This document shows, one piece after another, positions 48,949 through 51,968 of a stretch of DNA of 64,000 bases. The notes below the pieces were generated by a model. That model did not search any database and was not told the DNA's origin. It worked only from the letters and a program-made list of their open reading frames with translations. The translations under genes and the position numbers were made by a program. Every line of letters begins with the position of its first letter. Positions within the stretch are counted from its first letter, which is position 1. The stretch comes from Flavisolibacter ginsengisoli DSM 18119 (GTDB lineage: Bacteria > Bacteroidota > Bacteroidia > Chitinophagales > Chitinophagaceae): assembly GCF_900129295.1 (NCBI RefSeq), contig NZ_FQUU01000002.1, positions 258,488-322,487 of the forward strand. The letters run 5' to 3'.

Positions 48949-50637
48949 ATGAATCCAATTATTAGCATTCGTGATCTGTCTATTGATTTTGTGAAGGAAG
49001 GGGAAACAACCCAGGCCGTTAAACACATTTCATTTGATGTGCATAGGGGGGAAATTGTTGGCATTGTTGGAGAAAGTGGTTCTGGAAAATCTGTCACCTC
49101 ACTTTCCATTTTACAACTTCTGCCTGCGCCACCTGCAAAATATCCCAATGGTGAAATCTTATTTTCCCAGGAGGGGTTGGAGATTGTAGACTTGCTACAC
49201 TGTTCCAAAGCATCTATACAGGAGATCAGGGGACATAGGATCGGAATGATATTCCAGGAACCTATGACTTCACTCAATCCAGTAATTACCTGTGGCAAGC
49301 AGGTGATGGAAGCTTTACAGGTTCATAAAAAAATATCTTTTGCTAAAGCAAAACAACAAACTATTGAATGGTTTGAAAAAGTAAAATTACCTGACCCTTT
49401 GACTACTATTAATAAATATCCCCACCAATTAAGTGGTGGCCAGAAGCAAAGGGTTATGATCGCCATGGCCATGTGTTGCAATCCTTCACTACTAATTTGT
49501 GATGAGCCCACCACCGCATTGGATGTCACTGTTCAAAAAACCATTCTATCTCTGATCAAAGAACTGCAGCAGCAACAAAACATGGGTATTATATTTATTA
49601 CTCATGACCTTGGAGTTGTAAAGGAAATAGCCGACAAGGTGATTATAATGTATAAAGGTGAAATAGTTGAACAAAATTCTACAAGCAATATATTTTTACA
49701 CCCTGAACATCGCTATACAAAGGCACTGATTGCCTGTCGCCCGGCTTTGCATTCAAAAGGAGAAAAACTTCCCATAGTCAGTGACTTCATGGAGAAGAAA
49801 AAAGAAAATGTCATTTCTAAGCAACCTGCTTCAGTAAGCATTCCAAAAAAGGAAATAGTCATGGAGGTGAGAAACCTGGTGGTTCAATATCCTTCCCGTA
49901 GTAACTTTTTGGGTAAAATAAAAAGCCATTTTACAGCGGTAGATCATGTCAGCTTTACTATCCTCAAAGGTGAAACTTTAGGTTTGGTTGGTGAATCAGG
50001 ATGTGGAAAAACAACACTTGGACGGACAATTTTAGGGCTTATTGAGCCTACCGGTGGAGAAATACTTTATGATGGAAAGAATATCACTCACTTAACTAAA
50101 GATGAGATCAAACAACTAAGGAAAGATGTGCAGTTAGTATTCCAGGATCCTTACTCTTCTCTTAATCCTCGCCTTACAATTGGGGCAGCCATAGCAGAAC
50201 CCATGAAAATTGCGGGTCTGCACCAGGACAGCCATACCAGAAAACGCCAGGTAGCTAAACTTTTAGACCAGGTCAATCTCTCGGGAAAAGTTGCAGATCG
50301 CTATCCCCACGAATTCTCAGGTGGCCAAAGACAACGTATAGTAATTGCAAGAGCATTAGCTTTAAACCCCAACTTCCTTGTTTGTGATGAATCCGTTTCG
50401 GCGTTGGATGTAAGCGTTCAGGCCCAGGTATTGAATCTGCTAAATGAATTAAAGAATGAACTGGGGCTAACATTATTATTTATTTCTCATGACCTTTCTG
50501 TGGTTCGTTTCATGAGTGATCGAATCATGGTGATGCATAAAGGCAAAATTGTAGAAGAAGGCATTTCGGAAAATATTTACAATAATCCCCAAAATCCATA
50601 TACTCGTGAATTATTGCAATCAGTGCCTGGTACCTGA
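48949..50637 (+). CDS. ABC transporter ATP-binding protein with two fused ATPase domains
   Basis: This 562-residue protein carries two ABC ATPase domains in tandem. Domain 1 (about 5-250): Walker [12 protein letters not shown], signature LSGGQKQR, Walker [12 protein letters not shown]. Domain 2 (about 300-560): [30 protein letters not shown]. Both carry the oligopeptide-type C-terminal extension ([17 protein letters not shown] and [16 protein letters not shown]). This DppD-DppF-type fusion (as in YejF/GsiA) powers peptide uptake with a permease pair; no permease or binding protein is encoded nearby. Start ATG 48949 follows the preceding gene; the frame is open from an earlier ATG at 48931 that overlaps it. 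Confidence 0.93.
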
Positions 50638-50715
50638 TTGAAACTAAGAAAATAGTTTGCAGAAAGTAATGCCATAAATATCAGAATTCAAAAAATTATT
50701 ATATAAGTCTTAGTA

Positions 50716-50753
50716 GATATTTATAAAAAACTGGCCGGTTTTTTATAAATATC
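50716..50753. repeat. Perfect 16-bp inverted repeat upstream of the queA leader promoter
   Basis: GATATTTATAAAAAAC (50716-50731) is followed by a 6-base loop TGGCCG and the exact complement (50738-50753). The A6...T6 stem around a GGCC centre may be a bidirectional terminator for the ABC gene, which ends 79 bases upstream; being one base from the -7 element TATTTTTG at 50755, it could also be an operator. Confidence 0.8.
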
Positions 50754-50754
50754 T

Positions 50755-50762
50755 TATTTTTG
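50755..50762 (+). promoter_or_regulatory. Promoter -7 element TATTTTTG of the queA leader
   Basis: TATTTTTG followed by CGGCC is the extended -7 pattern and predicts a start near 50766, about 153 bases before the queA ATG. No TTG at the expected -33 position is seen; the 16-bp palindrome occupies that place. Confidence 0.6.
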
Positions 50763-50765
50763 CGG

Positions 50766-50900
50766 CCTTTAAGCCAAATGACCTTCCCCGGTGCCGTAAG
50801 ACCGAGGTGTAAATGTTAAGGGTTATAAGCACAAGGATATTCCCTGGCTTCCCCTTCTCTTGCCCCTGCACACTGCCCCGATCAAGTCCGAGGCTATACA
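50766..50900 (+). ncRNA. Candidate structured RNA in the long leader of queA
   Basis: This stretch is clearly richer in G+C than its surroundings and folds into a rod by eye: AGCC (50772-50775) with GGCU (50892-50895), GAC (50780-50782) with GUC (50886-50888), GUGU (50807-50810) with ACAC (50870-50873), AAGGG (50818-50822) with CCCUU (50852-50856), AAGC (50827-50830) with GCUU (50847-50850) and AGG (50834-50836) with CCU (50843-50845). A side hairpin CGGU/ACCG (50789-50792 with 50801-50804) lies near the 5' end. A long imperfect rod with an internal bubble recalls 6S RNA; identity is not established. Two short frames inside (13 codons from 50778, 41 codons from 50813) are probably not genes. 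Confidence 0.4.
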
Positions 50901-50918
50901 TAAATACTAAAATAGTCC

Positions 50919-51968
50919 ATGAAGCTTTCACAATTTAAGTTTGACCTTCCCTTAAATCTAATTGCCCAACATCCTGCTAAAAAACGTGAAGATGCCCGAA
51001 TGATGGTTGTACATCGTAAAACGGGACAAATCGAAAACAAATTATTTAAGGATATACTCGAGTACTTCGATGACAAAGACGTTTTTACTGTAAATAATAC
51101 AAAGGTTTTTCCCGCAAGAATGTATGGCCGTAAAGAGAAAACAGGCGCAAAAATCGAAGTATTCTTATTACGTGAGTTAAATAAAGAACATCGTCTCTGG
51201 GATGTAATTGTTGATCCCGCAAGAAAGATACGCGTAGGCAACAAATTATACTTTGGCGATACCGAGGAACTGGTGGCTGAAGTAATTGATAATACTACTT
51301 CACGTGGTCGTACCATCAAGTTTCTTCATGAAGGTTCTGAAGATGAATTCAGGCTGGTTCTAGAAAAATATGGAGAAACCCCATTACCAAAATATATCAA
51401 GCGCAAGCCGGATGAGGAAGACCGCGAACGTTACCAGACTGTTTATGCAAAGCATGAAGGTGCTGTAGCTGCCCCTACCGCAGGGCTGCACTTTAGCCGC
51501 GAACTTATCAAGCGTTGTGAGATCAAGGGCATCCGCTTTGCCGAGGTAACCCTCCACACTGGCCTAGGTACTTTCCGTCCTATTGAAGTTGAAGATCTCA
51601 GTAAACATAAAATGGATGCCGAATATTACCGTATTGAAGATGCTGCCTGCAATATTGTAAATAAGGCAAAAGAAACGAGTCATCGGATCTGTTCTATAGG
51701 CACTACAACAATGAGAGCACTGGAATCTTCAGTAACTGCACAAAAACTTTTAAAACCTTCAGAGGGATGGACAAATATATTTATTCATCCTCCTTACGAC
51801 TTTAATATTGCGGATTCATTAGTTACCAATTTCCATCTTCCAAAAACAAGTTTGTTGATCATGACCTGTGCATTTGCTGGTTATGACCTTACAATGGAAG
51901 CTTATAAAAAAGCAATTAAGGATAAATACCGCTTCTTCAGTTATGGTGATGCCCTGCTGATCGTTTAA
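50919..51968 (+). CDS. queA: S-adenosylmethionine:tRNA ribosyltransferase-isomerase
   Basis: This 349-residue enzyme makes epoxyqueuosine in tRNA by transferring the ribosyl group of SAM to preQ1. Signatures are [21 protein letters not shown] at the start, [68 protein letters not shown] and [18 protein letters not shown]. Length is typical (about 345). It is read from a promoter 153 bases upstream through the structured leader, and it ends in a terminator shared with the convergent lysC. Confidence 0.96.

Follow-up and report, generated by a model that had tools for sequence, protein, structure and literature searches.

The leader of queA in Flavisolibacter ginsengisoli DSM 18119 carries a small hairpin with a CCGUAA loop that recurs before queA in its relatives, and we propose, with a probability of roughly 0.5, that this leader is a cis-acting control element, a translational operator that would be read through its C[C/U]GUAA loop by a putative factor. 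What comparison between relatives shows is that the loop is constant, that the stem covaries, that the place before queA is kept, that in some genomes the stem runs into the start codon and that the family has a closing helix close to that codon. By the same comparison, the conserved parts of the leader are a -7 box, the hairpin at 50789-50804 and a closing helix that includes the pair 50772/50895, and its interior is variable. Positions are those of the window, that is, the whole 64,000 nt stretch of DNA that was analysed.

Anatomy of the queA leader

In the window queA lies on the plus strand at 50919-51968 and encodes a tRNA preQ1(34) S-adenosylmethionine ribosyltransferase-isomerase of 349 aa, identified by NCBIfam models NF001140 and TIGR00113, both above their cut-offs. 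An ABC-transporter-like open reading frame upstream ends at 50637, and a 62-aa minus-strand open reading frame (50743-50931) overlaps the leader. The 40 nt inverted repeat at 50715-50754 (no strand assigned), which an earlier sequence-only reading had called a perfect palindrome, makes 19 of 20 Watson-Crick pairs when its mismatches are listed and has one T/G position beside its centre; its GC core and T runs lead us to regard it as probably a two-way terminator. Directly 3' of this repeat is the promoter box TATTTTTG (50755-50762, plus strand), which we assign to the Bacteroidota -7 type, with the consensus TAnnTTTG. Similar boxes were found 5' of the hairpin in most of the queA leaders that we inspected. 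The box bears out the promoter-like start proposed earlier, and the 156 nt between it and the queA ATG at 50919 (50763-50918, plus strand) make up the predicted untranslated leader.

The conserved hairpin, CGGU-GCCGUAAG-ACCG, occupies 50789-50804 of the plus strand, an assignment based on the fold, the pairing and conservation in relatives, and it is the 5' side hairpin that the sequence-only reading had drawn. Comparison of loops across leaders places the loop core CCGUAA at 50794-50799, with G opposite G at the loop edge; below the four pairs of the stem there is a C/A mismatch, followed by two C-G pairs (50786-50787/50806-50807). The hairpin is enclosed by a closing helix on the same strand, in which the outer arms AGCC (50772-50775) and GGCU (50892-50895) and the inner arms GAC (50780-50782) and GUC (50886-50888) pair with one another, and leader-specific helices are seen in relatives. 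Between hairpin and 3' arms lies a CT-rich insert (50808-50880, plus strand) whose length and sequence differ between relatives and for which blastn gave no match in relatives of the same genus. The GC-rich, CT-rich body described earlier in AT-rich DNA is indeed present, sub-windows over 50820-50899 having a GC content of 0.57-0.60 with more C than G, against 0.20-0.35 in the flanks. No terminator was seen between leader and queA, and copies of the leader elsewhere in its own genome were limited to short matches with E >= 0.66.

The sequence-only reading had also drawn the leader as a rod with paired segments nested from 50772/50895 to 50836/50843. It can be seen that the outermost pair of this rod falls inside the AGCC/GGCU helix, which is backed by relatives. 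The inner part, to about 50836/50843, lies in the variable insert; it does appear in the minimum-energy fold, but it is not conserved. The 153 nt at 50760-50912 folded just as dinucleotide shuffles do (z = 0.00, with 95 of 200 shuffles equalling or beating the leader), and for this reason we dropped folding energy as evidence. The minus strand of the leader gave z = -1.67, and 50700-50920, which includes the inverted repeat, gave z = -2.37. We conclude that the leader is a real feature with a core that differs from the rod, and that the above-chance evidence for its structure is comparison between relatives, not energy.

A constant loop on a changing stem before queA

Among the blastn matches listed, 16 of 17 genomes of the same genus have all or some of the block 50753-50807 just before queA. 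The match in one genome (G010) was just 21 nt long with an E value of 0.04, and for another (G013) no match to the block before queA was among those listed. The stretch 3' of 50807 was mostly without a match in these genomes. To go beyond the genus we assembled 223 non-duplicate queA upstream regions, 128 from the family, which we judged from named relatives to be the Chitinophagaceae, and 95 from other families of the same class. Duplicates, defined as sharing the same 100 nt before the start, were left out, as were L152, L172 and L036, the last of which is not queA; L179 and L180 were grouped with the family and L032 with the other families.

We found that hairpins with a C[C/U]GUAA loop and no fewer than four stem pairs were present in 115 of the 128 family leaders and in 27 of the 95 leaders from other families, the remaining 68 of which had no hairpin by this criterion. 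When the leaders were put through 50 rounds of dinucleotide shuffling, using 230 nt rather than 330 nt (the shorter span giving 114 and 27 in the unshuffled leaders), such hairpins arose on average 0.62 times in the family set (maximum 2) and 0.22 times in the other set (maximum 1). None of fourteen control hexamers taken as loops gave more than a single hairpin per set within 170 nt. CUGUAA, the only other loop found, is rarer than CCGUAA. The loop stays the same while stems vary widely among the 95 other-family leaders, for example UUAAUAAA/UUUAUUAA, UUGAAUU/AAUUCAA, UAAAUC/GAUUUA and AAAAUUA/UAAUUUU, and all seven stem pairs change on both sides across 33 hairpins. Covariation among homologous queA leaders had been suggested as a check by the sequence-only reading, and the constant loop, covarying stem and kept place before queA answer it in favour of a conserved structure. 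Among named genome records the hairpin was present at 60 of the 78 usable queA loci (of 80 in all), and it was present at none of 15 loci inspected from other classes of the phylum. Two variants were also seen: a CCAGUAA loop on a CUAGCC/GGCUAG stem in the last 60 nt before queA (L393), and AUCAUG-CCGAAA-CAUGAC about 85 nt before queA (L464).

Within the family, bases 5' of the hairpin pair with a stretch that lies a little upstream of the start codon. This closing helix takes the form AUGAC/GUCAU in many leaders, and CUGUAUAAC/GUUAUACAG, UUCACGA/UCGUGAA or CCAACGU/GCGUUGG in others. An unrestricted test of the helix was weak, since only 15 of 105 leaders beat all 20 of their shuffles, and we therefore made a restricted test in which the 3' side was confined to 14-48 nt before the start, a range chosen after the leaders had been inspected. 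In this test, across 71 non-redundant leaders and uncorrected for relatedness, leaders paired with themselves at 13.30, compared with no more than 12.77 in 2000 permutations between leaders. With promoter box, hairpin and closing helix all recurring before queA across the family, the earlier description of a structured RNA stands, and the suggestion that it may be a queA-regulating leader gains support.

We measured the distance from the 3' end of the hairpin to the ATG in the 141 leaders that have the hairpin within 230 nt; it was no greater than zero in 14 of them, 1-20 nt in 15, 21-60 nt in 18, 61-120 nt in 81 and more in 13. The 3' arm includes the whole AUG in seven leaders and its first base in four more. 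In named Chitinophaga loci, at least five of them (L475, L479, L481, L485 and L487), UUCAUA-CCGUAA-UAUGAA stands at the start codon in place of UUCAUG-CCGUAA-CAUGAA, a compensatory change of one base pair next to the AUG, and in Taibaiella sp. KBW10 (L494) CAUAUC-CUGUAA-GAUAUG is found at the start codon. The position of the hairpin at the start codon in some genomes points to translational control. Direct occlusion of the start would not be general, however, because most family hairpins are 61-120 nt away from it and the stem in the window has only four pairs.

We also compared the leader with known RNA classes. The whole window gave no match to Rfam at gathering thresholds, and a search of 50500-51100 at E <= 10 gave 11 low-scoring matches, none of them to the 6S, 6S-Flavo, preQ1 or queA models; 6S-Flavo and preQ1 were those that the sequence-only reading had named as ones to try. 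Its suggestion of a 6S-like RNA is not supported by these results, the conserved part being a small hairpin and not a long rod; the likeness to 6S RNA and 6S-Flavo lay in the rod with a bubble, the interior of which is not conserved. The preQ1 riboswitches share with the leader a queuosine-related gene downstream, and differ in that their covariance models do not match.

The closest relative in Rfam is RF03093, the queA RNA, an orphan motif of 59 nt typed 'Gene; sRNA', for which Weinberg et al. 2017 is reportedly the source paper. It has the same place before queA, and its first hairpin is UUCAUG-CCGUAA-CAUGAA. The window shares with it the location upstream of queA and the CCGUAA hairpin loop, but has another stem in place of the UUCAUG hairpin, a longer and variable insert, and a score below the gathering threshold; as the model fails on the window, we did not file the leader as a member. 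That threshold was reached by only five of 76 leaders scanned (L107, L108, L111, L119 and L129), a sample that included L032 from another family and in which 60 leaders taken in consecutive blocks contributed three. In some leaders of the family both forms of the hairpin are present, which links the window type to RF03093. We conclude from these comparisons that RF03093 is one narrow form of a wider hexaloop element. The earlier suggestion of an unknown class thus stands in so far as RF03093 misses the window, and not in so far as an orphan relative already exists. Within the collection of papers searched, no text names the queA RNA motif or the CCGUAA loop in those words, and none was found on a queA leader and riboswitch in Bacteroidetes.

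The hairpin before other genes and in arrays

A bare-hairpin model, R1, built from stems of at least five pairs, was run on 139 genomes of the class; the full pairing of its matches is thus partly a matter of selection, and the window's own hairpin is not among the matches listed. Many of the single R1 matches fell within coding regions, and after visual inspection we left these out. In one genus (g208, three genomes) the hairpin lies just before the start of metH in all three (L269, L328 and L339) and just before that of metF in two (L334 and L333), and in the third (G483, L327) the contig breaks off immediately beyond the hairpin. With scores short of the whole-protein cut-offs, NCBIfam recognised methionine synthase in the truncated metH pieces and methylenetetrahydrofolate reductase in the metF proteins. 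A single case of a nine-pair CUGUAA hairpin was seen just before a plsX-like open reading frame (G397, L314 position 764).

SAM or methionine metabolism is common ground for QueA, MetH and MetF, and the leader might accordingly be a metabolite riboswitch in which hairpin and closing helix together bind SAM, methionine or a queuosine precursor as an aptamer, controlling translation of queA and elsewhere of metH and metF. The closeness of the closing helix to the start codon would suit such a switch. Outside the family, though, all that could be recognised is a hairpin with a loop of six nucleotides on any stem, in leaders that are often short, which leaves little room for a pocket; there is no match to known riboswitch families, and the arrays described next are left unexplained. 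We regard a riboswitch as unlikely.

The hairpin is also found in tandem. A tandem hairpin pattern gave 151 matches in 47 of 396 class genomes, whereas the pattern in reverse gave 42 in 34 genomes; not all of these matches are arrays, and 13 of the 47 genomes, all from a single genus, have just one or two apiece. No match was found in the genome of the window. Reading of the loci gave 22 clusters of at least three hairpins, with 3-21 copies each, and 21 of the 22 (131 hairpins) lay wholly on one strand, the exception (L272) being an AT-rich palindrome. These loci were found through a loop search and some are interrelated (L248, L250 and L261; L366 and L367), and what links arrays to leaders is the shared loop and its closing pairs. 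One-strand arrays of 5-21 C[C/U]GUAA hairpins lie between genes at L256 (1330-1850), L360, L344, L355, L275, L265, L250 and L307. L256 combines a TAGATTTG box with 12 hairpins and one that is terminator-like, with most CCGUAA hairpins present in its minimum-energy fold, and a terminator-like hairpin with a CCGUAA loop ends L258, L275 and L307. Such arrays may be stand-alone RNAs. Rfam gave no match at gathering thresholds for any of 18 loci scanned, arrays and single hits together, and no hairpin was seen in the queA leaders inspected in several array-bearing families (for example L197, L199 and L244). In one genus (g136; L248, L250 and L261) the array lies between a panB-like open reading frame upstream and a 187-aa open reading frame downstream, and in family f80 and a relative, units of two or three hairpins lie near a ribB/ribBA-like open reading frame (L345, L347, L348, L351 and L354).

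The terminator-like members of these arrays, together with the few stems that are repeated within several of them like duplicated repeats (L343, L344 and L355), would fit a stabilising or terminator hairpin that these genomes simply favour and that has no specific reader. On that explanation the lack of any comparable hexaloop before queA and the overlap with start codons are unexpected, and the motif YCCYGTAAGR is only modestly in excess in the genome of the window (86, against 56 for its reverse). We consider this explanation improbable.

With the start approximated at some loci, 28 of 29 tgt leaders had no hairpin, and we rejected a regulon of the queuosine pathway on this result. The same result bears on mimicry of the anticodon. 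The anticodon loop of tRNA(Tyr) is CUGUAAA, and preQ1 at G34 is the substrate of QueA; the hexaloop contains (U/C)-G-U-A-A, CUGUAA is the sole alternative to CCGUAA, and it is attractive to imagine that the hairpin imitates queuosine-tRNA(Tyr) and is bound by QueA or Tgt in autoregulation. The commoner loop, however, has C at the position of U33, which is invariant in tRNA, and neither the bare tgt leaders nor metH, metF and the arrays find an explanation, so that we give mimicry little credence. A mini-ORF reading AUG-CCG-UAA was ruled out, as other stems place other codons before CCG.

A small RNA in its own right, of the 6S type or another, that is upstream of queA only by its position would accord with the promoter box, the terminator-like repeat upstream and the Rfam typing of RF03093, but it is very improbable given the lack of a 6S match, the place before queA kept across the class and the absence of any terminator seen before the gene, and as 11 leaders other than that of the window have the hairpin running into the start codon, the probable independence proposed by the sequence-only reading is unproven.

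Proposed mechanism and comparison with known systems

The reading that we prefer for the queA leader is that of an operator acted on in trans, because a trans-acting factor best explains the fixing of the loop alone, the hairpin before other genes and its multiplication in arrays. The putative factor, most likely an RNA-binding protein, would read the loop and hold hairpin and closing helix shut, limiting access of the ribosome to the queA start, and release of the leader would then permit translation of queA. The arrays could serve as decoys for the same factor, as CsrB does for CsrA, a step to which we attach less weight. Extended to its full scope, the proposal is of a Csr-like network in Bacteroidota in which CsrA is not detected, where the putative factor would read C[C/U]GUAA hairpins lying upstream of, or overlapping, the starts of queA, metH and metF and so tie queuosine modification of tRNA to the supply of SAM and methionine, with RNAs of 3-21 copies as decoys; in this form it is tentative, and we would sooner bet against it than for it.

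RF03093 is recast, since the hexaloop is kept and the surrounding sequence is not, as part of a class-wide element rather than an orphan motif. If the links to metH, metF and the arrays hold, they would point to a new kind of post-transcriptional regulator in bacteria without CsrA. A passage of PMC12119571 reports the genus Bacteroides to be generally without Hfq, ProQ and CsrA, and the RbpB motif quoted there, GUAGGAUA, is unlike the C[C/U]GUAA loop. A search for CsrA itself (PF02599, E <= 0.01) found it in none of 18 genomes, and the control search was positive in E. coli, B. subtilis and T. maritima.

The likeness to CsrB/RsmZ decoys and CsrA operators is that one loop motif is carried on many hairpins, in target leaders as well as in arrays. 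The systems differ in that the array loop is C[C/U]GUAA and not the GGA of Csr/Rsm, and in that CsrA was not found in any of the 18 genomes. The iron-responsive element, which we offer as an analogy only, differs in loop sequence, bulge, host and protein, and resembles the queA hairpin in having a constant hexaloop on a variable stem, placed before a start codon and read by a protein.
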